A stretch of DNA of 64,000 nucleotides from Nitrospinota bacterium (GCA_016208975.1 JACQXA010000001.1:189834-253833), one strand, 5' to 3'; positions 18,002 to 43,466 are shown, counted from the first letter of the stretch. Program-made: numbers and translations. The notes: generated by a model from the sequence alone, not told the origin.

Positions 18002-18985
18002 TTATCCGCCCACATGGACCATTTGCGGTTTTATCGCTTCTTCGTTCAACTCGTTTCTAACACCGTTTTTCTTCATCACCGCGTTTATGATTGCTACGGA
18101 AATCTCCTCATCTGACGCGCCGCCGCCTGCCATGGCGCCAAGATCAACCGATTCGCCGCCGAACAGACAGGTCAGCAATTTACCGGACGATGTTAGCCGC
18201 AACCTGTTGCAGTCCGCGCAAAAATGGCGGCTGACCGCGGAAATAAACCCCAACTCCCCTTTCGCTCCGGCCAGATGGTACACTTCGGCCGGGCCACTCC
18301 AGCGCGGTGTGTCCAACCTGGACAACACGCCCATATTTTCTACAATACTTTTCACTTCGCTCATGGGCACGAACCTTTTTTCGTTCCAATAAGCGGCCGC
18401 CGTGGGCATCAGTTCTATGAACCTGACCTGCGCTTTCATCACCCGGGAGAGCTTTACGAACCTGGGTATCTCGTTATCATTCACTCCACGGATCACAACC
18501 ATATTCATTTTTACGGATTGGAATCCAGCCGCCATGGTGGCGCGGATGCCGCTCATCACCTTCCCCAACCCGTCATGACCAGTGATGCTTTGATACTTAG
18601 CCCTGTCCAGCGAATCCAGGCTTATATTGACGCTTCGCGCCCCGGCGTCACGCAACTTTCCCGCCAGTGAGTTCAGCATAAGCCCGTTGGTAGTTATGGC
18701 TACCTGCCCTATTCCGTGAATCGCCGAAATTTGGCCGATAAAGTTTATGATCCCTTTTCTAAGCAACGGTTCGCCGCCGGTGATTCGTATCTTGCTTACT
18801 CCAAGACCGGCAAATACTTTTGCGAGCCGGAGCATGTCCCGTAACGGAAGCATGCCGCAATCTGTATGGCGCGAGGCGCTAACGCCGGGCCTGCAATAGG
18901 CGCACGACAGGTTGCACCTGTCCGTGATGGACATCCGTAAATATTTTACGCGCCGGTTGAACCCGTCAACCAACCGTCCGTTCAT
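18002..18985 (-). CDS. moaA: GTP 3',8-cyclase MoaA
   Basis: 327 residues. N-terminal radical SAM cluster motif ITDRCNLSCAYC, ITGGEPLLRKG and ITTNG. The C-terminal second cluster is FCADCNRLRLTSSGKLLTC (CxxC-x13-C), and the chain ends in HVGG; the Gly-Gly terminus is needed for catalysis in MoaA. It makes 3',8-cyclo-GTP, the first step of molybdopterin synthesis. It lies 16 bp after the GT4 stop and 29 bp before tatA. moaC, moaB/mogA and moeA are absent here. Confidence 0.97.
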   Translation of the reverse strand: MNGRLVDGFNRRVKYLRMSITDRCNLSCAYCRPGVSASRHTDCGMLPLRDMLRLAKVFAGLGVSKIRITGGEPLLRKGIINFIGQISAIHGIGQVAITTNGLMLNSLAGKLRDAGARSVNISLDSLDRAKYQSITGHDGLGKVMSGIRATMAAGFQSVKMNMVVIRGVNDNEIPRFVKLSRVMKAQVRFIELMPTAAAYWNEKRFVPMSEVKSIVENMGVLSRLDTPRWSGPAEVYHLAGAKGELGFISAVSRHFCADCNRLRLTSSGKLLTCLFGGESVDLGAMAGGGASDEEISVAIINAVMKKNGVRNELNEEAIKPQMVHVGG

Positions 18986-26533: not shown

Positions 26534-27778
26534 TCAGTCCCAATATTTATCCTTTGCCTGGATGGCGGCCGGGCCTTCCGGTTTCGAGCGTTCGACAAGC
26601 TCTGCGTTGCCAAGCTTACCCTTGGAATAGAAAGCCCACTCATAAGCCGTGATTTTCCATATCTGCTCGTCCGAGAGCATTTCACCCCAGGCGGACATCG
26701 GGCTATCTTTGCCGAAGCCGTACTTGATTATCTGGAACCAACGGGCCTCGGTGAGGTTCTCCATATCCGGGCTCGTGGTGAAGTCCGGCGCGCCTTCGAA
26801 CAGCGGCTTGCCATCTTTTCCGTGGCACACATGGCAGGCCACGTCCGGATTAACAAGACCCTCGTATAGCTTCCGCCCTTCCTCTACAACGGCCGCGTTC
26901 GTCCACCAGCCCTCGGGCATGTTTTCGGTGGAGACGTGCAACGCGCTTTTAAGGTTCTCAAGATATGTGACCACGGCCACCAGTTCGTCTTTTGTAAGCT
27001 GTTTGCCGTAATAGTCCGGCATGGAGCGGGCCACCTTGGGGTTTTCCGCGTATGGTTTAAGTATTTCCTTGTACGGGTCCACAAGAGACTCCGTTATCTT
27101 CTCCGGCTTGCCCAAGTCAATCTCCGAAAGGTTTGGCCCCCGCTTTACCTCGCCGCCCGGGGCGATGTTGTGGCAGTTGAAACACTCGAAGTCCTTGAAC
27201 ACCTGGGCGCCAGCCCTGATCACCGTGTCCTTGTCCGCGCCGGCCAGGGAGAGGGTGGTTTGCTTGAGCTTGGCTATCTCATTCTCCGGCTCATACTGAG
27301 GCAACATGGTGGAGGTGAACAGATAAAGCGCCGAAGAGCCCACATAAAGGACTAGAAGGTTATTCACGCTCTTAAGCCCGGAAGGCTCCGCCATGTCTGG
27401 CTTGAATTCGAGAAAAATGAAAAGGAACAGCCCAAGCAGGGCGAATACTATCATGGTGACAATGAACATGGGCGGGAACTTCAGCACGCTGGCGGCTCCC
27501 CACAACGCGACAATCATTGCGGCTCCGGACACGCCAAAGTAATACCCAAGCGCCTTCGAGAAGGACAAGCCCCCGCTTTCTGACCGGACCGCGCCGAAGT
27601 CGGACAATGCGAAATAGACGAGGTACGGTAGCGTGAAGGCGGAGAACATCACGCCGAAGCTACTAGGCATCTTATAAAGAGTAAATGTCAAAGCCCAGAT
27701 GAACGCATTGGCGCCCAAAAGCCCGATGGCCTTCTGCTTGAATTTTTTCTTGGACTCGGCTGTCACGGTGAAAGCCAT
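26534..27778 (-). CDS. membrane-anchored diheme cytochrome c
   Basis: 414 residues, with GGGAGG upstream of the ATG. The first 170 residues contain about five membrane helices. The periplasmic part holds two cytochrome c domains with CFNCH (GAQVFKDFECFNCHNIAPGG) and CHVCH (DVACHVCHGKDGKP). Axial Met candidates are SMPDYYGKQLT and SPMSAWGEML, a standard class I arrangement. It is the last gene of the molybdoenzyme operon and follows the bd-like oxidase subunit by 31 bp, so it probably substitutes for CydB as the partner bringing or taking electrons at the periplasmic face. Confidence 0.92.
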   Translation of the reverse strand: MAFTVTAESKKKFKQKAIGLLGANAFIWALTFTLYKMPSSFGVMFSAFTLPYLVYFALSDFGAVRSESGGLSFSKALGYYFGVSGAAMIVALWGAASVLKFPPMFIVTMIVFALLGLFLFIFLEFKPDMAEPSGLKSVNNLLVLYVGSSALYLFTSTMLPQYEPENEIAKLKQTTLSLAGADKDTVIRAGAQVFKDFECFNCHNIAPGGEVKRGPNLSEIDLGKPEKITESLVDPYKEILKPYAENPKVARSMPDYYGKQLTKDELVAVVTYLENLKSALHVSTENMPEGWWTNAAVVEEGRKLYEGLVNPDVACHVCHGKDGKPLFEGAPDFTTSPDMENLTEARWFQIIKYGFGKDSPMSAWGEMLSDEQIWKITAYEWAFYSKGKLGNAELVERSKPEGPAAIQAKDKYWD

Positions 27779-27809
27779 CTAAATTGCCTCCCTCTCCGGC
27801 GTAATTCCC

Positions 27810-29351
27810 TTACTCATGCTTTTTGGCTTCCACATTTACCCGCAGGCTGAACCAGATGATGAAACTGAACACCAGGAAAAAACCGAGGGTTATCAACGTG
27901 GTCATGGCCCCGGAATACTGTAGTGTCGGCGTGTAGGATTCCAGCGTGGTGTCTTTCACCTGGAGATAAACATGGTTGGATTTCCGGACAAGTTCCCTTA
28001 CGGCGCCCATGAGGTTCATGAGCCATATGTCAGAGAAGCCGAGGAATATAAGAATGTATTGAGCCAGCGGATCCACCTTGCCCCAGGCCACCTGGCCGGT
28101 CTTGACCGACCGGTTGTATAGGAAGAAATTGGCGAAGGTACACAGGCAAATGATAACCGCCGCAAGGTTCTTGGCCTTCATCAGCGCCAGGTAGCCCAGG
28201 TGCGAGGGTAGCTCGGTTCCGGTAACGGCCATGCCCGGCTCCGGCACCATGGTGGCGAAATAGTGCCTTGGCAGGAACCAGATCATCGCGCCGAAGAAGA
28301 TCAGCACGTAGTTCACCTTCATCCACTGCTCAAACCTCTCCGCCCCGGTGATGCGCTTCATGGAAATCCACATGTACAGGTTGGACGCCACGAAAAGAAG
28401 ACCCACCAGCACCGCCTGCGCCTCGAAATACATCGAAAGCCTGTCGGACATCATGTACATTCCTATGCTGGCGTCGTACATGTAGAACTCGTAGGCGTAT
28501 ATATAGCCCATTATCGGCAGGGGTATCATGGCGCCAAGCCCGATAAGGTTGCCTATGTAACCCTGCCAGTCGTAAAACTTCCTGTCCTCCGCGTTTCTGG
28601 ACATGAAGTACATGTAAGCGGAGATGATGCAAACCATGTAGCCGCCGAAGGTGACGTTGCCTATCATCCGGTGCAGGTTCAGCGGCATCCATGTGAAGTT
28701 GTTGATGTTGTCCCACAGCGTGGGGTTGTCTATTCCCTTGGGAGGCGTGTTCATGTAGCTGGCCGGGGCGTTCAGGATAAACAGGGTAAGTATGCCCACG
28801 CCGTTGAGCAGGAAGCCGATTCCGATATGGGCCAGTTTTTTCGTTTTAGTGCCAGACAGCGGGCCCCAGCTGTAATAGTACATGTACATCAGGATGGTTT
28901 CCCCTATGAACGACAGGGGGTATATGACAAGCCATATAAGGTCGAACTTGTAAAACAGGTAGTACGTGATCTTCGGGTAGAGGCCGAAAAGAAGCAGAGC
29001 GAAAGCCCCGCCAAAAAGAGCGGTTAGCGAGTAGCAGAACGCGGTGACTTTGATAACTTCCTTGGCCAGGCGCTCATACCTGTAATCTCCGCTCCATACG
29101 TAAAGCGCTTCGGATACCAGCACAAAGAAGGGCACCCCCAGGATGAACGAGGCGAAAAGGATGTGCGTCTGCGCGGCGATCCATATAATCGCCCTGTTCC
29201 CCATAAGGGGGAAATCTATGGGCGGCAGGTTCTCTGGCACTGGCGGAACTTTTTGGGCCCATGCCGCGTCTGCCATGAAAAACGCCAGCGCCGCAAAGGC
29301 CAGCATGGCGCCCGCGAACAACGTTCTACCGGTTATACCCTGAATTCTCAT
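27810..29351 (-). CDS. cytochrome bd-like oxidase subunit I (CydA family)
   Basis: 513 residues. An N-terminal hydrophobic stretch ending DAAWAQ looks like a cleavable signal, which classical CydA lacks. Then the CydA-type helices: QTHILFASFILGVPFFV (His 63, position of a heme ligand), IYPLSFIGETILMYMYYY, MPLNLHRMIGNVTFGG and DRLSMYFEAQAVLVGLL. The periplasmic Q-loop motif of true quinol oxidases (GRQPW context) is not visible. No cydB is adjacent; a diheme membrane cytochrome c follows instead. It belongs with bd-like subunits reported in nitrite oxidisers and relatives, which may take electrons from cytochrome c. Whether it reduces oxygen is open. Confidence 0.85.
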   Translation of the reverse strand: MRIQGITGRTLFAGAMLAFAALAFFMADAAWAQKVPPVPENLPPIDFPLMGNRAIIWIAAQTHILFASFILGVPFFVLVSEALYVWSGDYRYERLAKEVIKVTAFCYSLTALFGGAFALLLFGLYPKITYYLFYKFDLIWLVIYPLSFIGETILMYMYYYSWGPLSGTKTKKLAHIGIGFLLNGVGILTLFILNAPASYMNTPPKGIDNPTLWDNINNFTWMPLNLHRMIGNVTFGGYMVCIISAYMYFMSRNAEDRKFYDWQGYIGNLIGLGAMIPLPIMGYIYAYEFYMYDASIGMYMMSDRLSMYFEAQAVLVGLLFVASNLYMWISMKRITGAERFEQWMKVNYVLIFFGAMIWFLPRHYFATMVPEPGMAVTGTELPSHLGYLALMKAKNLAAVIICLCTFANFFLYNRSVKTGQVAWGKVDPLAQYILIFLGFSDIWLMNLMGAVRELVRKSNHVYLQVKDTTLESYTPTLQYSGAMTTLITLGFFLVFSFIIWFSLRVNVEAKKHE

Positions 29352-29366
29352 TCACATCTCCAGATG

Positions 29367-29897
29367 TCATAATCCCCTGGCCATATAGATTTCCAGCGGC
29401 GCTCCGATGTCGAACGGGACCTTTTTCAGATGCCTGTCCTTATATATGTACTTGACTGTGGGCGTGTCTTTCTTTTCAGTATGGCTATGCAGTAAAAGGC
29501 CATCCGGCGTCTTCATGGGGACATATTTCATGTAGTCCTCCTTGCCGTAAAAGAACACCCCTGGCCCCTCCTCCTCATGGCATTTAAGACACGGATCCGG
29601 ACTGTAATAGAAAACAGTCTTTATGTCGGACATGGTGGCCCGGCGTTTGGTGATTATAAGGAAGGGCGCCTCAAGGTCGAACCAATCGTCATCCCACGCC
29701 GACCCTACGGGCGGTTTTATGGTGGATACCGGAACCTTTTGGCCGAAAACCGGCGAACCGCTGGCCTCGGCCTCCTCCACCTTCTCGGGTACCATCAGCG
29801 CGCGGAAATAGTTGTCGGAATTCCTGATGAACAGCCCGTACCAGATAGCGCCGCAGATAAGCGCCGCTATCAAGGCTCCAAATTTTACTTTTTCCAT
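29367..29897 (-). CDS. membrane-anchored monoheme cytochrome c
   Basis: 176 residues with one N-terminal membrane helix (FGALIAALICGAIWYGLFI) and a single heme site CLKCH in YSPDPCLKCHEEEGPG. A beta-rich region follows, with no family I know. Its start overlaps the end of the FeS gene by 13 bp, and the bd-like gene follows 15 bp after its stop. Position suggests the relay between the molybdoenzyme's FeS subunit and the bd-like module. Confidence 0.85.
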   Translation of the reverse strand: MEKVKFGALIAALICGAIWYGLFIRNSDNYFRALMVPEKVEEAEASGSPVFGQKVPVSTIKPPVGSAWDDDWFDLEAPFLIITKRRATMSDIKTVFYYSPDPCLKCHEEEGPGVFFYGKEDYMKYVPMKTPDGLLLHSHTEKKDTPTVKYIYKDRHLKKVPFDIGAPLEIYMARGL

Positions 29898-30496
29898 TCG
29901 CCCCTCACCGACCTCGGTTTCAAAAATATGTTACTGGGACCGAGATTGTGCGTGTCAAGGTCCATGATCTGACGCCCCTCCGCCTCCACCCTCTTAAGGA
30001 GCTCTTCCCGAGGCCCGAAATCCAGCGCCTGGCTTGGGCATTTCATCATGCAGGCCGGTTTATTGCCGCCAGGGGCGTCCGGGCTTCTATCGGCCTTATG
30101 GACGCAGAATGTGCATTTGTCCACCACAAGGTATCCGTATTTGTTCTTCTGCGGGGAAAGCCGTATGGCGCCGTATGGGCAGGCGAACTCGCAGAACCGG
30201 TCACCGTCGCACTTGTCCGGAATGATTATCACGCGCCCATCGGACTCCCGTTTCTCGATAGCCTTGCCCTCCACCGGGCACGCGGCGATGCACGCTGGCT
30301 TTTCGCAATGCTGGCAGTTCATGTACACCGGAAACAGGGCTGGGTCTTTACTCTGGTCCGGCCCCATAAGGACAACCTCGTTCCGCTGATATTCCTGCCT
30401 GATATGGTTTTCAAGCTTGCATGCGATCACGCAACCGCGGCAGAAAATGCACCGCTCCATGTCCACAAGAAACGCCATCTGCTGTTTTACGGCCAT
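29885..30496 (-). CDS. [4Fe-4S] electron-transfer subunit (PsrB/DmsB-like) with CxxDxxC site
   Basis: 203 residues without signal peptide; it would be exported together with the Tat-bearing catalytic subunit 9 bp upstream. Cluster motifs: CIFCRGCVIAC, CQHCEKPACIAACP, CDGDRFCEFACP and CTFC-x14-CMMKC. In the third the second cysteine is an aspartate (CxxDxxC), the arrangement known from Pyrococcus furiosus ferredoxin, where the cluster interconverts between [3Fe-4S] and [4Fe-4S]; NarH-type subunits likewise lack one Cys in one motif. The cluster may therefore have an altered potential. Confidence 0.92.
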   Translation of the reverse strand: MAVKQQMAFLVDMERCIFCRGCVIACKLENHIRQEYQRNEVVLMGPDQSKDPALFPVYMNCQHCEKPACIAACPVEGKAIEKRESDGRVIIIPDKCDGDRFCEFACPYGAIRLSPQKNKYGYLVVDKCTFCVHKADRSPDAPGGNKPACMMKCPSQALDFGPREELLKRVEAEGRQIMDLDTHNLGPSNIFLKPRSVRGEWKK

Positions 30497-30505
30497 AATC
30501 CGCTC

Positions 30506-33076
30506 CTACTTGCCACTCTGGCCGGTTCCGCCGCCAAGCTCCTCGGCCGGATGCCCGATTTTGTATATCTTCAGGCCTGGATGCGAGCTTATGGAGCAAA
30601 GCTGGGCTTTGTAACATACCTGGCCGGAAAGCGTGTCGTAATACGTTTCCGTGAGGTTGTTCACGGAGTCCCAAACACGCCGGTCCATAGCCGTCCTTAC
30701 AACTTGCTTTAGGCCGAAGCCTATTGGAACGAAGACGGTGTTCGGCTGAATCCCGTCCCACACGATGACAGGCCCTTCGATAAACCCGCGCGGTGTCTCC
30801 AGCTTTATGAAGTCCCCGCTTTGGATGTTCATCTGCTTGGCCACGTCAGGATGGATCTGTATGTACCTGTCTCCCGATTGTTGCACAAGCCCCCATGCCC
30901 AGTGCGTGATGCTGTGGAAGTGCAGGGCGTTGGGCCGGCCGGTGGTGAACTGGAATGGGTATTTCTCCCTCAACTCCTTGTCCGGCGCCACACCGATTTT
31001 CACTTTGTGCACAAGGTTGCCGCCGGACGTGTTTGCGACGGTCGGGCTCTTGACGAACTCGTCCAGATACTGAAGCGTGGGTAGCCCGTCCATGTTCTCC
31101 GGCGATGTGTAAAATTGGGGGATGGCGGAGTGCCCCGTGGCCTCCAGGCTGGCCTGCAGTTCTTTGGTGAATACCTCCACCTTGCCGGACGGCGTAAGGA
31201 ACCGTTTACCGCCGAATATGCCGCGCCACTCCGGCCTGTCCAGATACATCACGCTCGTTCCGGGATGGGTGGTTGATGGGCATGGCCACCTGAGGGGTGA
31301 CGCCATTTTGTCCAAACGGTCGGCCGTCATCCCGGCGGCGGTCTTGTTGTTGGCCGGATTTACGGTGTTCCACAACAGGCGGTTGTCCAGCCACTCGGTT
31401 TTCAGATTGTCCTTCCAGTACGCTGGCGGATGCTTCTTGTCCAACTCCGCCATTTTCTGCCCCATCTCTATCCATATGCGGGAGTCAATGCGGCTTTCGC
31501 CAACCGGCTCCACCACCTTGTTGTTCCACCTGATGCCGCGGTCGCACCGGCGCATGCCAACAGCGTCCACCTCGTAAAAGGTGGTCGTGGGCAGGATGTA
31601 ATCGGCGAAGTAGCAGTCCTCCTGCGGGAAGAGATTGAGCGACACGAAAAGATCCAGCTTTTTAAGCGCCTCTTGTGTGCGTTTGTTGCTGGCGTTCTGC
31701 GTCATCATGTTGCCGGCGTAAATCACCGCATGGAGCGGGTATGGCTTGCCTGTCAGCGCCGATTCCACGAAATAGTCCGGATGGGGTGGAAGGCCAGGCT
31801 CGGTTATGGGTTCCACGTCTATGATGGGAGGCAGTGTCAAACCCACCGGGCTGTTGTGCAGGAAATTGGCCCCGCCGCCGGGAATGCCGACGTTGCCTGT
31901 TATGGCGGCGAGGAAGCTTATGACGCGATAAGTGTCCACCGCGTTTACCTGGTGGGCTATACCGGCGTTGGTTATTATGGCGGCCGGTTTTGTTGTAGCG
32001 TATTTTTCGGCGACTTCCCTTATTGTGGCTTCGGGGATGCCTGTTATCCCCTCCGCCCATTTCGGGCTGTAGCCTTTGCCAATCACAAAACCGGACAGCT
32101 CGGAGAAACCCAGGGTCCATTCTGATACGAACTTTTTATCGTACAGCCCCCGCTCAATGATGTGGTGGATCATGCCATAGATGAACGCCATGTCCGTACC
32201 GCACTTTATGGGAATCCACAAGTTGGCCCCGGAGCCGGTGAACGTCATGCGCGGATCAACCACCACCCATTGCGCCCCAACGGCTTGTTTGCGCAGGAGC
32301 ATGTAGCCGTGAAGCACCGGATGGGTTTCAGCGTGGTTGGAGCCTAGCCAAAGCACAAATTTGGAGTCGCCCAAGTCTTCAGTGCCCGTTATGGAATCCG
32401 GCCCGTAGCCATTGGTCTGCCCGGCGTTTCCGAAAGTCATTTTCAGGGCTATCCCGCCAGCGTCGTTGCATACATAACCTTCGTGGGTGGTATTCGGGCT
32501 TCCCAAAAGCTCCATGAACCGCCATTGCATGGCTGGGGTCTCCCTGGTCTGCCTGCCTGTGGCCTTGGCGGCGATTGCCTTGGCCCCGTGCTTTTCCTTT
32601 ATTTCAAGGAGTTTGGAGCATATCTCCGTGTAAGCCTGCTCCCATGAAATAGGCTGGAAATTGGAGGTAGGTTTGTCACCAACGCGCTTCATCGGTTTGA
32701 GAAGACGGTGTTTGTTGTAGATCAACTGCGGTATGGCCTGCCCCTTGGCGCAAAGCTTGCCTCTTTGCACCGGGTCGCCAGATTCTCCGTAAACGTTGTA
32801 AACCCTGCCGTCTTTTACGTGTACATGATGGCTACAGCTGGATGGGCAAAATGAGCATCCCGATTTTACGACACCGTCTATTTCCTGCCCATCTTCGGGC
32901 CTGTGTATAACTTTTTGCGTGTATGGGTAATCAATAAGGGGATCTATCAGCCTTGCTTCCAGCCCTCTTCGCTGAAGACTGCTTTTCGGAGCCGGGTAAC
33001 ATCCAGCGCCAGCGGCCAGCGCGGCAGGGGCAAGCTTGATAAACGTCCTGCGTGTTAATCGCATCTTGTCCACCAT
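30506..33076 (-). CDS. Tat-exported molybdopterin oxidoreductase, catalytic subunit (DMSO reductase family)
   Basis: 856 residues (852 from the in-frame ATG at 33064). Twin-arginine signal RLTRRTFIKLAPAALAAGAG ends in a lipobox-like AGAGC. FS0 cluster CSFCPSSC...KLCAKG lies near residue 75. Further landmarks are GSPNTTHEGYVCNDAGG, where the Cys may ligand the metal as in Psr/Phs-type enzymes, GSNHAETHPVLH, ADYILPTTTFYEVD, and the C-terminal dinucleotide domain (NALHFHSITHW, FIKLETPRGFIEGPV). Substrate cannot be told; sulfur oxyanion, polysulfide, nitrogen or arsenic compounds are possible. The operon also encodes FeS, cytochrome c and bd-like subunits. Confidence 0.93.
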   Translation of the reverse strand: MVDKMRLTRRTFIKLAPAALAAGAGCYPAPKSSLQRRGLEARLIDPLIDYPYTQKVIHRPEDGQEIDGVVKSGCSFCPSSCSHHVHVKDGRVYNVYGESGDPVQRGKLCAKGQAIPQLIYNKHRLLKPMKRVGDKPTSNFQPISWEQAYTEICSKLLEIKEKHGAKAIAAKATGRQTRETPAMQWRFMELLGSPNTTHEGYVCNDAGGIALKMTFGNAGQTNGYGPDSITGTEDLGDSKFVLWLGSNHAETHPVLHGYMLLRKQAVGAQWVVVDPRMTFTGSGANLWIPIKCGTDMAFIYGMIHHIIERGLYDKKFVSEWTLGFSELSGFVIGKGYSPKWAEGITGIPEATIREVAEKYATTKPAAIITNAGIAHQVNAVDTYRVISFLAAITGNVGIPGGGANFLHNSPVGLTLPPIIDVEPITEPGLPPHPDYFVESALTGKPYPLHAVIYAGNMMTQNASNKRTQEALKKLDLFVSLNLFPQEDCYFADYILPTTTFYEVDAVGMRRCDRGIRWNNKVVEPVGESRIDSRIWIEMGQKMAELDKKHPPAYWKDNLKTEWLDNRLLWNTVNPANNKTAAGMTADRLDKMASPLRWPCPSTTHPGTSVMYLDRPEWRGIFGGKRFLTPSGKVEVFTKELQASLEATGHSAIPQFYTSPENMDGLPTLQYLDEFVKSPTVANTSGGNLVHKVKIGVAPDKELREKYPFQFTTGRPNALHFHSITHWAWGLVQQSGDRYIQIHPDVAKQMNIQSGDFIKLETPRGFIEGPVIVWDGIQPNTVFVPIGFGLKQVVRTAMDRRVWDSVNNLTETYYDTLSGQVCYKAQLCSISSHPGLKIYKIGHPAEELGGGTGQSGK

Positions 33077-34673: not shown

Positions 34674-36503
34674 TCACTTTTTAGCTGAAAACCGGGCAAA
34701 AGGCGAGCGTTCCATCGCCTTTTCCAGCGCCTCTTCGGTGATGTATTTATAACCGTTTTCCCTGGCGAATTTCTCTATGAACTTGCGCGCCATGGGGCGG
34801 AAAGGTTCCGGAGCGCTCTCAAGCCTTTTGCTGGCCTCCGGGGTCCATCCCATTTTCTCCCCCGTGTCGTCCGAAAAGAAATCGCCGAATTTTTCGATTA
34901 TGTTTTCATTTTTTGCTCCACGGGTGTCCAACATGGCTTTTATGTTTTCGATGACTTCCTGCTTGCGGCCATCTTTCTTGAATTTCCCTTTGGCCTTGTC
35001 CCACGCTTCCATGCTCAATTTCTCAAATCCCATCTTTTTCATCCTGCGGGTCACAAGCATCATGGATTCGTCGCGGATTTCTGAAAGGAATCCTGAGGTT
35101 ATCCGGCCAATCCCCCGCTGTCTCGCTCTGATGGCCATAAGTTTCAATATTCCCGGCCGCACAAAATCCGGAGCGTTTTCCACCCGCGCGCGGGCGTCTG
35201 CATCCCATTCCACGCTCTCGCACGCGATTCCTGGCGAAAGGTTCTTGCGGCTGAACACCGGCGCGCCTGAGGGGGCTGGAGCCGCCGCGCGTAAAATGTC
35301 GCTGGTAATAACCGGAACCCCGTGTTTGGCGGCGTATTCCTCTACGCGCTGTTTTACAATCTCACGGGCGAAAACCGGTATTTTCTCCATCGTCTCCACC
35401 GCCTCCCTGGACCATTCGGCCCCGCAGATATCCTCCCCGCCGAACCTGCTACGCGTGTCGGCGCATACCACCGGTTCTTCCACCCCTTTGGGTTGATACA
35501 GGCAATACGGATCCTCGCCCATTTGGCCGCCACCGGAAGCCAGAGCCCGCGCCCTGCATCCGCCGCAAAGCAACCTGTAAGCGCACACGCCGCATTTGCC
35601 ATGGTATTCCGGCGTCCGGAACATTGACAGCCCTGGAGAATGCCGCCATATGAGTGGAAACTCGCTTTCCCTCAAGTCACCGGCCGCCGTGTCCATGTAC
35701 GGGCAGGGGGTTATTTTGCCGTCCGGTTTTATCCTGCAATAGTTGGTTCCCGCCCGGCAGGCGGCGATATATGTTTTAAGCAACGGGTCATTGGCGTCGG
35801 CCTGCGCCATTATCCGTTTGAAATGGGGCGCGCATTTGGGGCGGATCATCATCCCTGGATACTCCGCCCGCGCGTCCGACGCCCATGTGAGTATCCGCTC
35901 ATACTCTTCCGGGGAAATGTCTGTCATCTTCTCTCCCCGGCCTGTGCATACCAGGAAAAACAGATTGAACGCGCGCGCCCCCATCCTGTGCGCCCATTCG
36001 GCTATTAGAGGTATTTCGGCGGTATTGCCGGGGCGCGGCGTTGTCTGCACCTGTATGTCCAGCCCCGCATCCCTCGCGTTTATAAGCCCTTCCACCGACC
36101 TGGCCCAGGCCCCCGGCGCGCCGCGGAACCCGTCATGGCGCCCAGGCTCTATGGAGTCTATACTCACACCGACGCCGGTAACTCCGGAAATTTTTAACGC
36201 CGCCGCCATCTTGGCGTCAAGCAACGTTCCGTTTGTCCCCACCACGGTGATAAGCCCAAGCCCAGCCGCCCTGGAGGCGATCTCAAAGATGTCCTCTCTC
36301 AGCAAAGGCTCCCCGCCTGTGAGGATTAAAACAGCGCCGGGATTGACGCTGGCTATCTGCTCCACCACCGCCAGCGCTTCCTGCGTGGAAAGCTCCTCCC
36401 CCTCCCCTGCGGCTCGCGCGCCAGCGTCCATATAGCAATGGGCGCACGACAGGTTGCATCGCGAAGTGAGGTTCCAGGATACGGCGTACGGCAGGAAAGT
36501 CAC
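34674..36503 (-). CDS. radical SAM/SPASM protein with three C-terminal PCP_red domains
   Basis: 609 residues from the GTG at 36503, which overlaps the stop of the upstream UspA gene (GTGA); the longer frame runs back into that gene. Radical SAM motif CNLSCAHCY (residues 16-24), LTGGEPLL, GTNGT. SPASM cysteines are in CRAGTNYCRIKPDGKITPC and CGVCAYRLLCGGCRARA, as in NirJ/AhbC heme-maturation and peptide-maturation enzymes. After these come three copies of the short domain W-x2-EA-x4-(L/M/V)-E-x-(A/I)P-x-F-(V/A/R)R: about 361-405 (EWSREAVETMEKIPVFAREI), 430-475 (EWDADARARVENAPDFVRPG) and 551-600 (WTPEASKRLESAPEPFRPMA), each ending in an IT-x-x-x-L helix. This is the PCP_red module known from the C-terminus of the ChlB/BchB protochlorophyllide reductase subunit. 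Function unknown; cofactor maturation is inferred from neighbours. Confidence 0.85.
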   Translation of the reverse strand: MTFLPYAVSWNLTSRCNLSCAHCYMDAGARAAGEGEELSTQEALAVVEQIASVNPGAVLILTGGEPLLREDIFEIASRAAGLGLITVVGTNGTLLDAKMAAALKISGVTGVGVSIDSIEPGRHDGFRGAPGAWARSVEGLINARDAGLDIQVQTTPRPGNTAEIPLIAEWAHRMGARAFNLFFLVCTGRGEKMTDISPEEYERILTWASDARAEYPGMMIRPKCAPHFKRIMAQADANDPLLKTYIAACRAGTNYCRIKPDGKITPCPYMDTAAGDLRESEFPLIWRHSPGLSMFRTPEYHGKCGVCAYRLLCGGCRARALASGGGQMGEDPYCLYQPKGVEEPVVCADTRSRFGGEDICGAEWSREAVETMEKIPVFAREIVKQRVEEYAAKHGVPVITSDILRAAAPAPSGAPVFSRKNLSPGIACESVEWDADARARVENAPDFVRPGILKLMAIRARQRGIGRITSGFLSEIRDESMMLVTRRMKKMGFEKLSMEAWDKAKGKFKKDGRKQEVIENIKAMLDTRGAKNENIIEKFGDFFSDDTGEKMGWTPEASKRLESAPEPFRPMARKFIEKFARENGYKYITEEALEKAMERSPFARFSAKK

Positions 36504-37690
36504 TTCCCGGGTTCCAGACGGGATCGGGCCTGTTGCATCATTTCCCCCGTTATAGTCTTGGCGCCTTGGCGGCGCGCCTCGGCTTCCATATGACCACGTA
36601 TCATATTGCGCACGAACGAAGGGGCGCGGTTCAACATCACTATGGCTTCGTCCTCCCACTTCACAGGCTCGGACTGTACCTCATTGTCCTTTCCTGGGGT
36701 GACAGTGCGGCTTACAAGCATCACGTTACAGGGGGCGGCCCTCAACAGGGTCTCGGTGTTTGAGCCGATATCAAGCCCGTTGTTGGAGTGGACGCCAAGC
36801 TTGCCAAGGATGAGCATGGACACGTCATTACCATCCAGCCACTTGAGTATCTCATCGTAAGGTTTGCCGGCCAGAACGAGCCCCTCGGCCTTAACCCCCT
36901 CTTCTTCGGCCATTTTAATGGCGCTGTTAAGGTGGTCCCGGTAAATCTTCTCCAGGCCGGAGTCTATGATTTCCTCGTGAAGCTTCTCCTGCTCCTTAAA
37001 ACGGAACACCTGACCGTCCTCTTCGGAAAGCACCCGCGCAATGCTGTTGAAAGCCCGGTAATGGAAGTGCGGGTCATACACCGTGATGGCGGTGATGGAG
37101 CATCCCATGTGTTTGTTCATGGCAATGGCCGCAGACATCGCCGCGAACGACCAGGCGCTTCCATCAATGCCCACCACCACGCGCCCGTCTTTTAACGGCC
37201 TGTCGTTTTTCAGGACCACCGCATCCACCTGTATGCGTCGCGTCACGCGCTCACATACGCTCCCCAGCTGGGTGGACGGGGTCTCACCGAGCCCCTTGGC
37301 CCCCATCGCCACAAGGTCGTAACCGGATGATTGAACGTCCTTTACGATTTCGTGGTAATTTTTCCCCTCCAGCGTCTTGCGCTCGTATGGTACTTTCCGG
37401 TCGTCGCACTTTTTCTGGAACACATCCAGGAACGAGTCGGAAACTATTTTCAGCCCCTTTTCAATGAGGACAGAATGGATGTCCCGCTGTTTGGAAAGCT
37501 CCTCAGGATCCTGGAACTGCGCGGGCAGTCCGGGTTCCATCTGGATGAACCTGTCTTCATGGAGACGGGCCGCATAAACATGGCTTCCCACCACTTTAGC
37601 GCCGAAGGCGTTTGCGAAATCGGCGGAAATATCCACCGCCCAGCCGGAATATTTTGAATTGTCAACCATGACAAGTATGTTCTTGTACAT
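36500..37690 (-). CDS. tandem universal stress (UspA) protein with C-terminal PCP_red domain
   Basis: 396 residues from the ATG at 37690, where the first UspA strand begins (MYKNILVMVDNSKYS); the frame opens 26 codons earlier without a ribosome-binding site. Domain 1 covers about residues 1-165 (DLVAMGAKGLGE, LGSVCERVTRRI), domain 2 about 175-335 (GRVVVGIDGSAWS, then LILGKLGVHSNNGLDIGSNTETLL, APCNVMLV), the second with the nucleotide-binding G-x9-G-(S/N)-type end. The tail KWEDEAIVMLNRAPSFVRNM...TITGEMMQQA is a PCP_red module. It is translationally coupled to the radical SAM gene and probably driven by the sigma-54-like element at 37953-37968. Confidence 0.88.
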   Translation of the reverse strand: MYKNILVMVDNSKYSGWAVDISADFANAFGAKVVGSHVYAARLHEDRFIQMEPGLPAQFQDPEELSKQRDIHSVLIEKGLKIVSDSFLDVFQKKCDDRKVPYERKTLEGKNYHEIVKDVQSSGYDLVAMGAKGLGETPSTQLGSVCERVTRRIQVDAVVLKNDRPLKDGRVVVGIDGSAWSFAAMSAAIAMNKHMGCSITAITVYDPHFHYRAFNSIARVLSEEDGQVFRFKEQEKLHEEIIDSGLEKIYRDHLNSAIKMAEEEGVKAEGLVLAGKPYDEILKWLDGNDVSMLILGKLGVHSNNGLDIGSNTETLLRAAPCNVMLVSRTVTPGKDNEVQSEPVKWEDEAIVMLNRAPSFVRNMIRGHMEAEARRQGAKTITGEMMQQARSRLEPGK

Positions 37691-37952
37691 ACGTTTTGAG
37701 AACCTCTTGGATTTAAAACATCTCCAACCTATGTAGCAATGGATATGCCCAATTGGCGTTAAACGCACAACTTGAGAATATGCGGCTTAACTGGCTGATT
37801 TTCCAGCCATACTCATCTTCCAGACCATCAACAACAAAGGAGGTGTGTGGGTTTCCCCACGGCGCAAAGGTAAAAACGCCATGGAAGCGCGCCAACCTGG
37901 AACACTCTAGATTAGCGTGATACCCGAATTAGCCGTAACCACATGTACATGA
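37691..37952. other. leader of the UspA operon
   Basis: No supported gene; a 60-codon minus frame (37713-37895) has no ribosome-binding site. A GGAACA word occurs at 37899-37904, and short inverted repeats (GGCTG-N6-CAGCC near 37793, GTGGG-N4-CCCAC near 37850) could be regulatory. Confidence 0.4.
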
Positions 37953-37968
37953 CGCAACAAATTGGCCG
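37953..37968 (-). promoter_or_regulatory. possible sigma-54 promoter of the UspA/radical SAM operon
   Basis: On the minus strand CGGCCA-N5-TTGCG: GG and GC are 10 bp apart and TTGC is intact, but the first T and the last W of the consensus are changed. It abuts the plus-strand element at 37969. Confidence 0.5.
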
Positions 37969-37984
37969 TGGAGCGTTTTTTGCT
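37969..37984 (+). promoter_or_regulatory. sigma-54 promoter of the Mrp/PCP_red operon
   Basis: TGGAGC-N5-TTGCT with GG and GC 10 bp apart; the predicted start is about 33 nt before the ATG of the Mrp gene. Confidence 0.72.
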
Positions 37985-38028
37985 TATAATTTGAATCCAG
38001 TGTACTAAATAATAGGCTGGGATGTGAT

Positions 38029-38874
38029 ATGAAAAAATATTCCGAAGTGAGCGGAGATGGCGGCTCTGGGATTCTGGAACAGGTATCCGGTCAGCTTGGC
38101 GCCCTTCACGAAAGGATGCGTGGCATCAAGCGCGTCATAGTGATTGTCAGCGCAAAAGGCGGTGTGGGTAAAAGTTTCATAACAGCCATGATGGCCAAGG
38201 CGCTTTCGAACCGTGGATACAGCGTTGGCGCGCTGGACGCGGACATAAACGGCTCGTCGATACCATACATGTTAGGTGTGGACTCATATAAGGCTATACG
38301 CGGAGAAAACGGTATTATACCTGCCGTGGGAGAATGCGGCGCTAAGGTGATGTCGCTGGATTTTTTCACCGGCTCGAACGGAGCGCCCGTGAAATGGGAG
38401 GGTCCGCAGGCCACACATCCATGGCTGGGCGCAATGGAGGCCACAGCCATCCGGGAACTGCTAAGCGACGCGGACTGGGGCCAGTTGGATTACCTGCTTG
38501 TTGACACACCCCCTTCCCTTGGAAGGCTCAACGACCTGATGGGGTTAGTGCCGTCGGTTTCCGGCGTGGTAATTGTCACCATTCCCTCGAAGGTGTCGTA
38601 CCGGGTGGTGTTAAAGTCCGTGGACAGCGTACGGGACACTGGCGCGCCTATTATAGGCGTGGTTGAGAACATGAGCGGAGTTTTGTGCCGTCATTGCAAC
38701 AAAATGGCGCCAATTTTCAACGGAGGCGACATGACCGAAGCATTGGATTTTATGCGTCTTCCATTACTGGGCAGTGTGCCGTTTGTCCGTGAAGGTGAGA
38801 GCATGGAAATTCCCGAGGCCGCCATAAACGGCATTTGCGATAAAACTGTTGCGTACGTGAACAGCGCCGGTTAA
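38029..38874 (+). CDS. Mrp/NBP35-family P-loop ATPase (FeS carrier type)
   Basis: 281 residues. Deviant Walker A SAKGGVGKSF (Lys 48) with signature lysine, then VGALDADINGSSIPYMLG, DYLLVDTPPSLG (Walker B) and the CRHCNK (CxxC) pair near residue 222 used by Mrp/ApbC proteins to hold a bridging [4Fe-4S] cluster. The family delivers FeS clusters to apo-proteins. It is 15 bp upstream of the PCP_red/zinc gene, with which it shares a sigma-54-type promoter, so a dedicated maturation role for the redox enzymes here is inferred. Confidence 0.9.
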   Translation: MKKYSEVSGDGGSGILEQVSGQLGALHERMRGIKRVIVIVSAKGGVGKSFITAMMAKALSNRGYSVGALDADINGSSIPYMLGVDSYKAIRGENGIIPAVGECGAKVMSLDFFTGSNGAPVKWEGPQATHPWLGAMEATAIRELLSDADWGQLDYLLVDTPPSLGRLNDLMGLVPSVSGVVIVTIPSKVSYRVVLKSVDSVRDTGAPIIGVVENMSGVLCRHCNKMAPIFNGGDMTEALDFMRLPLLGSVPFVREGESMEIPEAAINGICDKTVAYVNSAG

Positions 38875-38889
38875 AGGAGGCTACGGAAT

Positions 38890-39294
38890 ATGAAATTCGT
38901 GTGTATCAAGTGTGAAGAGGCCATGTTGATAAACTCCGTTAACGGCGACACCGACGGGTCGGCTGGAATAACTTTCAAATGCCCTTCGTGCGGCTCCGGC
39001 GCGCTTATGCTGATAAACCCGATGGAAGCCCAGCTTGTTAAAGGGATGGGAGTGCATGTGGGGCTTGGATCCGCTATGGCACAGCGCGCGCCCATGGAGG
39101 CCGTTGAGGGGGCCTTGAAGAAATCCGGTGATGACGAACCGGTAATTTGGGACAAGCAAGCCGAAGAGCGGCTTATGCGCGTTCCAGACATCGCCCGGCC
39201 CATGGCCAAGATGGCCATCGAAAGGCATGCCCGCAAAACCGGAGCCAGGATCATCAGCACAGAGCTGATGGACGAGGTGAAAAAATCGATGTGA
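38890..39294 (+). CDS. small zinc-ribbon protein with PCP_red domain
   Basis: 134 residues. The N-terminal CIKCEEAM...FKCPSCGSGAL is a CxxC-x23-CxxC metal knuckle (residues about 5-36). A linker follows, and residues about 85-130 are a PCP_red module (IWDKQAEERLMRVPDIARPM...RIISTELMDEVKKS). Proteins of this build are annotated elsewhere as PCP reductase family, though no protochlorophyllide enzyme is encoded here. An AAGGAGG lies before the ATG. It is the smallest of three neighbouring genes with the domain and may be its minimal form. Confidence 0.88.
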   Translation: MKFVCIKCEEAMLINSVNGDTDGSAGITFKCPSCGSGALMLINPMEAQLVKGMGVHVGLGSAMAQRAPMEAVEGALKKSGDDEPVIWDKQAEERLMRVPDIARPMAKMAIERHARKTGARIISTELMDEVKKSM

Positions 39295-39335: not shown

Positions 39336-40718
39336 TCAAACGATCCTGTTGAGGCTGTCGGCCAATAGCGGCATCTTTATCTGGTAACGTTTTATTTTGC
39401 GCCACAGGGTGTTACGCCCAATGGCCAGAATGTCGGCGGTCTTCTTCTGGTTATAGTTATTGGACTTCAATATTTCCAGGATGTACCTTTTTTCCAGTTC
39501 TTCAAGAGTGATTGGATTTTGCGACGCCGCGTAGGCGATGCCCACCTCCACCCCGCCCAGGGATTTTGGCAGGTCATCCAGATCTATCGTGCTGGACTTG
39601 CACAGGGCCACGGCGCTTTCAATGCAGTTTTCAAGCTCCCGCACATTTCCGGGCCATGGATGCTCCAGAAGCCTGTTAAGGGCATCTCTGGTGAATCCCT
39701 TAACGTCTCTTCTCATCGACGCGGAGAACTTGTTCAGGAAATGTTTGCACAACAGTAAAACATCCCCCTTCCGCTCCCGCAGGGGGGGTATGTTTATCTC
39801 CACCACCCTCAGCCGATAGTAAAGATCCTCCCTGAACTCACCGGACTTCACCATGTCGGCCAGTTTCCGGTTGGATGCGGCGATGATGCGGGTATTTATC
39901 TTCACATTTTCATTGGCGCCAAGCCGCTGGATGGTTTTGTCCTGAATGACGCGAAGCAGTTTTGTTTGCAGGGAAATCGGCATGGAGCCTACCTCGTCCA
40001 GAAACAGCGTGCCGCCGATAGACTCCTCGAAAAGCCCGACCCTGTTGGACACCGCGCCGGTGAAAGAGCCTTTAACATGCCCGAAAAGCTCGCTTTCCAG
40101 GAGATTTTCATTTATTCCGCCACAGTTTATGGCCACAAAAGGGCCGGAAGCGCGTAGGCTGGAACTGTGCACCGCCCTGGCCATCAGGTCTTTGCCTGTG
40201 CCGTTCTCTCCTTCTATAAGCACTGAAACGTCGGTCTCCGCAATCCTTTGCACAATGTCCATCGCTTCCATTATCTGCGGACTTTCGCCAAGGATGTTTT
40301 GGAAACCGTACTGTTTGCGGAACTCCTTGCGAAGGGTTTTTATCTCGGCCACCAGGCTTTTGTGCTCCAAGGCCTTGGAAACCGTGACTAGGAGTTTGTT
40401 CGAATCTATGGGCTTTATAATGTAATCGAAGGCGCCGAGTTTTATAGCCTCCACGGCGGACTCAAAAGAGCCATAGGCGGTGAATATGATGACCTCTGTC
40501 CTGCTGTTCATCGCCTTGGCGTATTCCAGCACCTCCGTCCCTCTGCCGTCCCTCAGCTTCAGGTCCGTAAGGACCAGGTCGTAAATGTTGGCGTCCAGCA
40601 GGCGTTTGGCCTCGGTCGCGCTGGAGGCTACTTCAACGCCATGTCCCTCGTTGCTGAACAGGATATGGAGTGTGGTGAGGATGGAATGCTCGTCATCTAC
40701 TATAAGAAGATTGCCCAT
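39336..40718 (-). CDS. NtrC-family sigma-54-dependent response regulator
   Basis: 460 residues. Receiver domain with phospho-acceptor Asp 52 (YDLVLTDLKL). AAA+ domain with Walker A GENGTGKD (about 170), the sigma-54 contact loop as GSFTGA instead of GAFTGA, Walker B GGTLFLDEVG, and the arginine finger region FREDLYYRLRV. A Fis-type helix-turn-helix (NNYNQKKTADILAIGRNTLW) is at the C-terminus. It activates transcription at -24/-12 promoters by ATP hydrolysis. It is last in the operon with the PhnD-like protein and histidine kinase; the seven -24/-12 elements nearby are candidate targets. Confidence 0.97.
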   Translation of the reverse strand: MGNLLIVDDEHSILTTLHILFSNEGHGVEVASSATEAKRLLDANIYDLVLTDLKLRDGRGTEVLEYAKAMNSRTEVIIFTAYGSFESAVEAIKLGAFDYIIKPIDSNKLLVTVSKALEHKSLVAEIKTLRKEFRKQYGFQNILGESPQIMEAMDIVQRIAETDVSVLIEGENGTGKDLMARAVHSSSLRASGPFVAINCGGINENLLESELFGHVKGSFTGAVSNRVGLFEESIGGTLFLDEVGSMPISLQTKLLRVIQDKTIQRLGANENVKINTRIIAASNRKLADMVKSGEFREDLYYRLRVVEINIPPLRERKGDVLLLCKHFLNKFSASMRRDVKGFTRDALNRLLEHPWPGNVRELENCIESAVALCKSSTIDLDDLPKSLGGVEVGIAYAASQNPITLEELEKRYILEILKSNNYNQKKTADILAIGRNTLWRKIKRYQIKMPLLADSLNRIV

Positions 40719-40752
40719 TATTCATACTGCCATTTTATTGTTTTATTTAAAG

Positions 40753-42588
40753 TCAGTTGACCGGAAAAAGCACGCGGAAATCGGCCCCCCTGCCGGGCCG
40801 GGAGCTAAGCTCTATCTTGCCGTTGTGCTGTTCCACTATCCTTTTCACGGTGGCCATGCCAAGGCCAAGCCCCCCGCTTTTTTTCGTGTAGAACGGCGTG
40901 AAGCAATTGCCTATTTCCTCATCGGTCATACCCACGCCGGTATCCTTCACCCTGAAATATACAAAGCCGTCGTCCACACCACTGCTCACCCGCAATGAAC
41001 CGCCGTTTTCCATGGATTGGATCCCGTTTATAACCAGGTTCCACACCACCTGCTTTATCTGGTTCTGGTCCGCCAGTATGGACGGCACCTCATGGGCGAA
41101 CTCCCTTATCAGGTCAAACCGGGCGGAGCCGTTGCGGTGATGCATGGCCAGGTTCAACGCTTCATCAAGGATCCGGTTGATGTCGCAATAACTCTTGGCC
41201 GGTTTCCGCTCCTGCGAGAAACCGAGAAAATCGTTCAGCGTCGCGTTGAGCCGTGACGCCTCCTTTTCAATGACCAAAAGCAGATTGCGCCTCTGCTCAT
41301 CGGTTATTTTGGACGAAGCGCCTGAAACAAGCTGTAACGCGGTTATCAGGGCGTTAAGCGGATTTCTAATCTCGTGCGCAAGGCCAGCGGCCATCTGCCC
41401 CATCAGCGCCAGCTGTTCCTTGCGTTTCAAGTCCTCCTTGAGGTTCGCCTGGTTGGTGGTGTCCAGGGAAAGCTCCAGCGCCCCTATTACAAGGTTGTGC
41501 TCGTTATGAAGCGGCGCGGCCAGTATGTGGAAGTTCCGCTCTTCACCCGCAACCACCCTTTTCTTGGATTCGCAGGAGACTATTTCTCCGGAAACCAGCG
41601 TCTCTTTCGCCGGGCACGACGGGCACGCGGAAAACCGCTCTGTGCTGTTGTGGACGCATCTGCATCCGAGCATTTCGCCGAACCATTCCTTGTGGATGCG
41701 GTTCTGCCATATCACAGACATGGTGGTGTCCATCACTATCATGCCAGCCTGCATCCCGTGGAGGATGTTGTCCAGCTTCTCTTTTTCCAGCCGCAGTTCG
41801 TTCAGCACCGATTCGTACCTGCCGATGATGGCGGTGACAAAATCGTTGAACCGCGCTATCTCGTCCCTCTTTTCATATTGGTTTATGTCAATGTCGTCCA
41901 GCACGTTTGTGCGCATGGCGCCGATCTTTTTCACGGTAATGTCTATGGGCCGGAGCATCCTTAGCATGGCGAAATACCCGAGAAGCGCGCCGAGCGATGC
42001 GAGGCCAATGCAAATAAAGACAACCTTGGCGCGTAGCTTGCCTATGGTAGCGACATATGGCTTGTCGGAGACGCCGGCCACCACCATCCCGATTTTCTCG
42101 CCATTTATGGTGACCGGGGCCACCGCGTGGAACATCCTGAACATTCCGGGCTTATGCTCTATCCGGAGGTCGGCTCCAGCTGAGGATTCACCTGTGGGGA
42201 CACCGGGCAAAGTAAAATGGGAGCCTAACGGGTAGCTGGCCGGATTGGAGTGCGCGGCGACATTGCCGGCCCCGTCTATTACGGCGGCATACTCTATAAG
42301 GTGAAGCCCCTCAAACTGTTTGGGAACCTGGCGCGTGACATCGCGCACCGCGTTGTAAAGATCCCATGTGTCGTGGCGGATAAGCGGATTGGCGCTTCTT
42401 GTGGCAAGGCTGAAAACCGTATGTACGGCGTTGTGCTTCAGCTCACCCTCCAGAAACTTCTGGCTTTCAACGTATAAAACGTAAGTAAGAAGCGATGAGC
42501 ATATAAGTATCGTGCCTACAAGCAGAAGGCTTATCTTGCCTCCAATGGGCGCGTCGAACCTGAAAAGGTTGAATATCCGGGGAATCAT
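40753..42588 (-). CDS. membrane sensor histidine kinase with Cys-rich PAS domain
   Basis: 611 residues. First membrane helix (ISLLLVGTILICSSLLTYVLYV), a periplasmic sensor of about 150 residues, second helix (KVVFICIGLASLGALLGYFAML), HAMP, then a PAS domain containing CRCVHN...CPSCP, a cysteine cluster that could bind metal or FeS or sense redox state. Phospho-acceptor His is in LAHEIRNPLNAL (about 401); the ATPase shows NLVINGIQSM, DTGVGM and GGLGLGMATVKRI. It overlaps the PhnD-like gene by 4 bp and presumably receives its signal from that periplasmic protein, then phosphorylates the NtrC-type regulator encoded 34 bp downstream. Confidence 0.95.
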   Translation of the reverse strand: MIPRIFNLFRFDAPIGGKISLLLVGTILICSSLLTYVLYVESQKFLEGELKHNAVHTVFSLATRSANPLIRHDTWDLYNAVRDVTRQVPKQFEGLHLIEYAAVIDGAGNVAAHSNPASYPLGSHFTLPGVPTGESSAGADLRIEHKPGMFRMFHAVAPVTINGEKIGMVVAGVSDKPYVATIGKLRAKVVFICIGLASLGALLGYFAMLRMLRPIDITVKKIGAMRTNVLDDIDINQYEKRDEIARFNDFVTAIIGRYESVLNELRLEKEKLDNILHGMQAGMIVMDTTMSVIWQNRIHKEWFGEMLGCRCVHNSTERFSACPSCPAKETLVSGEIVSCESKKRVVAGEERNFHILAAPLHNEHNLVIGALELSLDTTNQANLKEDLKRKEQLALMGQMAAGLAHEIRNPLNALITALQLVSGASSKITDEQRRNLLLVIEKEASRLNATLNDFLGFSQERKPAKSYCDINRILDEALNLAMHHRNGSARFDLIREFAHEVPSILADQNQIKQVVWNLVINGIQSMENGGSLRVSSGVDDGFVYFRVKDTGVGMTDEEIGNCFTPFYTKKSGGLGLGMATVKRIVEQHNGKIELSSRPGRGADFRVLFPVN

Positions 42589-43466
42589 CGCGCCGGAGCC
42601 TTTGTGTAAGATACCGTCTTGCGCATTTTGCGTATGGAATCGTAGTCGGAATCTTTCATTTGGGCGAACTTTTCAATGGCCATCAACTTGAGCACTTCCC
42701 TTCCGGCAGGGTCATTGTGCAACGCAAGGAAAAATTCTTTAAGGCGCGACTTGATGGAATTGTCCAGGCCCGGCCGCACAACAAATGGGGTGAAGGGCAT
42801 GTAATCTGATTTGTGGATTATCTTGGTCTCCGCGGTTATTTTAGGGTGCATTTTGGAGACTGTCTCCCACACATAGCTGTCCACATAGGCCCCATCCGCA
42901 AGGTGTGAGGCTACAGCTTCTATAGAATTGGCGTGGCTATATGAAAAGAAAAAGGTCCTGAAAAATGTTTCAGGGGTCTCCTTCATCCTGCTCAGATAAT
43001 AGACAGGCACTAAAAACCCGGAGTTTGAAAGCGGATCGGAAAACGCGAACACCTTTCCTCTCAGATCCTCGAGGGACGCGTAGCCACTCTCCCGGCTTAC
43101 GATTAAGAAAGACTGGTACATGGGCCTGTTATTGAGAACAGGCGTAACCAGAAGCTCGAGCCCGAACTTGTCGTGATCGAGAGTATATGGGAGGCCGCAA
43201 ACGAAGGCGACGTCCACGCTTTCGCTCTCAAGAAGAGAACTCATCTCCTGGTATGACTTCCGGTAAACCGTGTCTATGGGGATGCCCAGACTTTTCTCAA
43301 GAAGATTAACCAGTTTTTTATGGGTGGCCAAATCGTATTCCAGCGCCACGGCCGTGAGGCCAAACCGGAGCCTGTGCTTTGCGGCGGGTTTAATACCCTG
43401 TGAATACCCATAGCCATACGACAGCGCTAACAACACCGCCGCCAATGAGAATAGAAATTTAGCCAT
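42585..43466 (-). CDS. PhnD-family periplasmic binding protein, likely sensor component
   Basis: 293 residues with signal peptide (MAKFLFSLAAVLLALSYGYG). PhnD-type fold: LRFGLTAVALEYDLATHKKLVNLLEK, then VDVAFVCGLPYTLDHDKFG, LVTPVLNNRPMYQSFLIVSRESG, DLRGKVFAFSDPLSNSGFLVPVYYL and ADGAYVDSYVWETVSK. No transporter genes accompany it; instead it is coupled to a histidine kinase and a sigma-54 activator, the same layout as the AioX-AioS-AioR and ArxX-S-R arsenite sensing systems. Ligand unknown. Its own promoter (43565-43580) is of the sigma-54 type, suggesting autoregulation. Confidence 0.9.
   Translation of the reverse strand: MAKFLFSLAAVLLALSYGYGYSQGIKPAAKHRLRFGLTAVALEYDLATHKKLVNLLEKSLGIPIDTVYRKSYQEMSSLLESESVDVAFVCGLPYTLDHDKFGLELLVTPVLNNRPMYQSFLIVSRESGYASLEDLRGKVFAFSDPLSNSGFLVPVYYLSRMKETPETFFRTFFFSYSHANSIEAVASHLADGAYVDSYVWETVSKMHPKITAETKIIHKSDYMPFTPFVVRPGLDNSIKSRLKEFFLALHNDPAGREVLKLMAIEKFAQMKDSDYDSIRKMRKTVSYTKAPAR

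Follow-up and report, generated by a model that had tools for sequence, protein, structure and literature searches.

PCP_red-tailed radical SAM and universal stress proteins of a Nitrospinota bacterium: a strong genetic tie to OR-N-type cytochrome bd-like oxidases and a probable role in their maturation

Introduction

The PCP_red domain (PF08369) has been described at the C-terminus of BchB/ChlB (PDB 2KRU and 2YNM) and as the standalone protein Asr4154 (2L09). By hidden Markov model (HMM) search and sequence match to these PDB entries, the same domain occurs in a 64,000-nucleotide stretch of a Nitrospinota genome (GCA_016208975.1, JACQXA010000001.1:189834-253833; hereafter, the window), where five modules lie in three neighbouring genes. 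Unlike those of BchB/ChlB, they stand without the nitrogenase-like BchB body, and are fused to a radical S-adenosylmethionine (SAM)/SPASM protein (rSAM-PCP), a tandem universal stress protein (Usp-PCP) or a zinc-ribbon protein; a further module of this genome is freestanding. In the open literature, a scope that leaves most subscription papers and all preprints outside, we found nothing on PCP_red/PF08369 in non-chlorophyll proteins, and no description of the PCP-tailed radical SAM protein, its pairing with Usp-PCP or the link to OR-N CydA reported here.

Three described systems are close to the partners of these modules. The radical SAM and SPASM core is common to rSAM-PCP, AhbD (heme b synthase) and NirJ/NirJ2 (heme d1 synthesis), and the substrates of AhbC, AhbD and NirJ are heme-type tetrapyrroles (PMC7242693); unlike AhbD and NirJ2, the window protein carries PCP_red tails and forms a clade of its own. 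The tandem universal stress proteins UspE, Rv2623 and TTHA0350 possess two Usp domains, as Usp-PCP does, and are its best structural matches, but Usp-PCP differs from them in its C-terminal PCP_red module, in several histidines conserved across phyla and in its pairing with a radical SAM protein. Most Nitrospinota have kept the OR-N cytochrome bd-type oxygen reductases (CydAA'), which are also found in other lineages. These enzymes are uncharacterised, their subunit composition and function being without experimental confirmation (PMC10839748). The window encodes a CydA-like protein that groups with them by profile and has a cytochrome c partner; compared with CydAA' of Nitrospinota, it is shorter (513 amino acids) and stands in line with a molybdoenzyme and an Fe-S subunit. 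Here, we describe a strong genetic tie between the Usp-PCP/rSAM-PCP pair and OR-N oxidases. Since the gene set nearly always accompanies these oxidases, it offers a direct handle on their assembly and heme, and the orphan PCP_red domain gains a context outside chlorophyll synthesis.

Results

Co-occurrence of the Usp-PCP/rSAM-PCP pair with OR-N oxidases

The presence of rSAM-PCP and of OR-N CydA was determined in identical sets of 692 sampled genomes from three groups. Both were detected in 80 of the 198 Nitrospirota genomes (rSAM-PCP only, 1; OR-N only, 5; neither, 112), in 10 of the 276 gammaproteobacterial genomes (0, 2 and 264, in the same order) and in 12 of the 218 genomes of the phylum to which genome G035 belongs (1, 1 and 204). 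When the groups were pooled, OR-N CydA was present in 102 of the 104 genomes with rSAM-PCP, and rSAM-PCP in 102 of the 110 genomes with OR-N CydA, neither being found in 580 (Fisher p about 1e-109, a value that overstates the case, as relatives are not independent). The radical SAM score threshold was chosen after a two-humped score distribution had been seen, and one Nitrospirota match (G519) does not extend into the PCP part of the model.

The CydA-like protein of the window scored 407 bits against an OR-N profile built without it, compared with 33 bits for Escherichia coli CydA; this similarity and the adjoining cbb3-type cytochrome c place it among the OR-N CydA proteins. In an alignment of OR-N proteins with E. 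coli CydA, the H19-type histidine was conserved in 13 of 14 sequences and the E107-type glutamate in all 14, with none at the E99 position. Because the C-terminal half aligns unreliably with E. coli CydA, we make no claim on the heme ligands of OR-N proteins.

Among the genomes listed with both genes on the same contig, 19 in number, the distance from rSAM-PCP to OR-N CydA was 1.7-16.5 kb. G732 carries the operon Usp2-rSAM/PCP-CydA-cytC-cytC, and G371 the order CydA-cytC-cytC-Usp/PCP-rSAM/PCP-HemY on one strand. All 15 Nitrospinota genomes listed contained PF08369 matches, and in most of them Usp-PCP and rSAM-PCP were adjacent in the same order, while the flanking genes varied. A search of species genomes yielded 331 relatives; the best 80 of these 331 belong to Nitrospinota, anammox Planctomycetota, Nitrospirota, 'Deltaproteobacteria', Poribacteria, and Gamma-, Beta- and Alphaproteobacteria. 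Across phyla, the number of PCP_red modules varies between one and three on the radical SAM protein, and between one and five on the Usp-Usp protein that commonly precedes it. The recurrent clustered neighbours were c-type cytochromes, a CydA-like protein, a HemY-like oxidase, a carboxypeptidase-regulatory-like secreted protein and a two-component system.

PCP_red modules of the cluster

All five modules were recovered when the whole Nitrospinota genome was searched with the PF08369 profile (curated cut-off, 32.5 bits): three on the radical SAM/SPASM protein, one on the tandem Usp protein and one on the zinc-ribbon protein beside an Mrp ATPase. The whole-protein scores (109, 46.5 and 46.1 bits, respectively) assign these proteins to PF08369, while the middle module of rSAM-PCP, scored alone, reached 31.8 bits, just below the cut-off. 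With a family PCP_red profile, from the building of which the cluster modules of this genome were left out, every cluster module, including the weak middle one, scored 52-62 bits, and the top score among 4000 shuffled sequences was 9.0 bits. The five modules in three neighbouring genes are thus real, as the preliminary description of the window had it, and its observation that the module is repeated on differing partners holds equally. No BchB-like protein was found among the PF08369 matches of the whole genome; against the full-length BchB model NF002789, the match was confined to the PCP_red part (75 of 509 bits), which leaves the cluster outside BchB/ChlB.

A sixth module, the freestanding one (56 amino acids, 65 bits), is located at G000:C3:139929-140063, directly 3' of moaA (L001 1483-1653). 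This MoaA/standalone-PCP pair was found in four Nitrospinota genomes, that of the window and G010, G011 and G013. A second MoaA-like gene, besides moaA of contig C3, lies within the window at 18002-18985. In Scalindua (L149 and L150; Pfam run on L149), a NIR_SIR/ferredoxin protein of the siroheme type carries a fused PCP_red module, a fusion that is absent from the window. Nitrospirota proteins of three to four PCP_red modules were observed near zinc-ribbon-PCP genes at L147 and L158.

Affiliation of the radical SAM protein

The top NCBIfam models for rSAM-PCP were NirJ2 (TIGR04055, 323 bits) and AhbD (TIGR04545, 302 bits), and its relatives rank alike. The protein has the full cysteine set, namely, CX3CX2C and the SPASM cysteines. 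In a tree of radical SAM/SPASM cores, the PCP-tailed proteins formed one clade (support 100/97), to which Paenibacillus NirJ2, on a long branch, was nearest (92/85), followed by AhbD together with a Thermus protein encoded beside nirS. The node uniting the PCP clade, NirJ2 and AhbD had moderate support (83/73), and some reference branches were long. The cysteine set and the placement with NirJ2/AhbD assign rSAM-PCP, with this moderate node support, to the NirJ/AhbD-type heme radical SAM group. This grouping, by NCBIfam models and tree, speaks against the earlier claim that none of the genes makes tetrapyrroles. Since the genome also encodes a separate AhbC-like/AhbD-like pair, rSAM-PCP is a third enzyme of the group.

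A role in heme d1 synthesis is unlikely: PF02239 (cytochrome d1) proteins were found in 10 of the 198 Nitrospirota genomes and rSAM-PCP in 81, and only 7 of these 81 have the cytochrome d1 protein.

The AlphaFold model of rSAM-PCP showed a confident radical SAM/SPASM core; the modules behind it are helical, and the linker that follows module 1 is disordered. In that of Usp-PCP (mean predicted local distance difference test score, 87), the tandem Usp fold was confident, and the PCP module, which consists of three helices, was attached by a flexible tether.

Indications of heme chemistry

HemY-like genes next to rSAM-PCP scored 232, 270 and 304 bits, over the protoporphyrinogen-oxidase cut-off of TIGR00562. 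Such a gene was present in 14 clustered rSAM-PCP loci, as well as in G371 and in G155, where it lies nearby on the opposite strand. Only 4 of 9 proteobacterial genomes contained HemJ, and in the rest the HemY-like gene may be either extra or housekeeping. A CPF motif, which we take to be of the heme-regulatory type, was present in the linker of every Usp-PCP protein from Gamma- and Betaproteobacteria whose sequence is complete there, and also in the linkers of Nitrospirota zinc-ribbon-PCP proteins.

Discussion

We assign a probability of about 60 % to the proposal that Usp-PCP and rSAM-PCP form a unit of two proteins that matures cytochrome bd-like oxidases of the OR-N type (a CydA-like protein with c-type cytochromes). 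Because the set almost always accompanies the OR-N oxidase across several phyla, it probably makes, modifies or delivers the heme of this oxidase, or inserts it. In the proposed scheme, rSAM-PCP, like AhbD and NirJ, would alter iron-porphyrin side chains; its Usp partner, dependent on ATP, would hold the tetrapyrrole or pass it on; and PCP_red may be a common docking module, through which the proteins bind one another or a tetrapyrrole-carrying partner, by analogy with its attachment to the protochlorophyllide-binding subunit BchB/ChlB, or a module that handles the tetrapyrrole. The Mrp/zinc-ribbon-PCP pair would be an addition specific to some lineages, perhaps a source of Fe-S clusters. A more tentative extension, to which we give distinctly less credence, is that in nitrite oxidisers, anammox bacteria and sulfur oxidisers the OR-N oxidases might carry an undescribed modified heme, made by the PCP-tailed NirJ2-like protein and Usp-PCP, in some lineages together with the HemY-like oxidase, and that PCP_red could be a general docking module of tetrapyrrole pathways.

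Several observations weigh against a maturation unit for OR-N heme. Many of the Nitrospirota genomes share ancestry, so that the co-occurrence counts are not independent, and the distance from rSAM-PCP to OR-N CydA ranges from about 60 kb to more than 1 Mb in most of the large genomes of this phylum. Most of the CydA genes behind the OR-N profile lie beside rSAM-PCP, which makes the comparison mildly circular; nonetheless, it detects OR-N genomes without the radical SAM protein. The scores of rSAM-PCP lie under both 500-bit equivalog cut-offs, placing it outside NirJ2 and AhbD proper. Beside moaA, where it stands alone, and in the Mrp/zinc-ribbon pair, PCP_red occurs outside a tetrapyrrole context, and within the 64-kb window both the CPF motif and a HemY-like neighbour are missing.

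The alternative that survives best, though we consider it unlikely, is that PCP_red docks P-loop Fe-S ATPases, as ChlL/BchL dock close to ChlB/BchB, and that Mrp loads [4Fe-4S] clusters into PCP_red-tagged enzymes, namely, the radical SAM/SPASM protein and MoaA. The complete set of radical SAM and SPASM cysteines fits this explanation, as does the standalone module beside MoaA, another [4Fe-4S] radical SAM enzyme. The pairing of zinc-ribbon-PCP with Mrp also fits, being kept in L039, L047, L054, L063 and L120; within Nitrospinota, it recurs in some genomes (the first three of these loci). In gammaproteobacterial genomes, the sole PCP_red matches were the adjacent Usp and radical SAM proteins, indicating that a PCP-tagged Mrp partner is dispensable, and Fe-S docking leaves both the HemY-like neighbours and the tie to OR-N CydA unexplained.

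Less probable still is that rSAM-PCP is a SPASM peptide or protein maturase acting on an OR-N polypeptide or on a small membrane protein nearby, with Usp-PCP in a leader-binding or energy-coupling role. SPASM enzymes commonly act on peptides, the nearest PDB structures to the radical SAM/SPASM core are PqqE, SkfB and SuiB, and a conserved membrane-type protein of 65-67 amino acids (c26_67) is encoded directly after the radical SAM gene in several loci. This small protein is, however, missing from most loci, including the window; the PCP clade is closest to NirJ2/AhbD and not to peptide maturases; and the HemY-like neighbours also speak against it.

Maturation of the neighbouring molybdoenzymes, which flank the cluster in the window (30506-33076 and 44602-47208) and occur beside it in G732, is very improbable and is rejected as a general role, despite the proximity of PCP_red to moaA elsewhere in the genome, because, across 80+ loci of other genomes, molybdoenzymes did not recur as neighbours, with G732 as the one exception. 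Of the earlier suggestion that the cluster matures nearby molybdoenzymes or cytochromes, the tie to a respiratory complex was retained, through the operon of the CydA-like protein and cytochrome c (26534-29351), and the molybdoenzyme part was not.

Gene organization of the window

The coordinates of the cluster, its modules and the oxidase genes are listed in Table 1. The most likely start of the radical SAM gene is GTG at 36503, and not 36659, and the usp gene probably starts with ATG at 37690. The radical SAM start overlaps the usp stop by four bases (GTGA), and the zinc-ribbon gene begins 15 bases past the Mrp stop, behind an AGGAGG site; these features make usp/rSAM and Mrp/zinc-ribbon two tightly coupled pairs.

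Table 1. Positions of the PCP_red genes and modules and of the oxidase genes in the window
Feature	Position	Strand	Remarks
Radical SAM/SPASM enzyme (rSAM-PCP)	34674..36503	-	609 amino acids; three C-terminal PCP_red modules; NirJ2/AhbD-like core
PCP_red module 1 of rSAM-PCP	35283..35414	-	PF08369 51.1 bits
PCP_red module 2 (middle) of rSAM-PCP	35079..35207	-	PF08369 31.8 bits; family profile 53.2
PCP_red module 3 of rSAM-PCP	34716..34847	-	PF08369 51.5 bits
Tandem Usp-Usp protein (Usp-PCP)	36500..37690	-	one C-terminal PCP_red module
PCP_red module of Usp-PCP	36524..36658	-	PF08369 50.4 bits
Mrp/NBP35-type P-loop Fe-S carrier ATPase	38029..38874	+	CxxC motif
Zinc-ribbon protein	38890..39294	+	one PCP_red module; paired with Mrp
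PCP_red module of zinc-ribbon protein	39148..39282	+	PF08369 48.1 bits
CydA-like oxidase subunit	27810..29351	-	OR-N type; proposed client
Cbb3-type cytochrome c	26534..27778	-	partner of CydA-like protein

The oxidase genes belong to a row on one strand (26534-33076) that encodes the cytochrome c, the CydA-like protein, a small unknown protein, an Fe-S protein and a molybdoenzyme; G732 (L206) shows a similar arrangement of CydA, cytochrome, NarJ-like and molybdoenzyme genes. On the other side of the cluster, genes for a PhnD-like binding protein, a histidine kinase and a sigma-54 response regulator follow in a row (39336-43466), and histidine kinase/NtrC-type genes recur next to rSAM-PCP in other phyla too. 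At 3844-4890, the window encodes a TackOD1-domain protein in this bacterial genome, the domain being named for Thaumarchaea.

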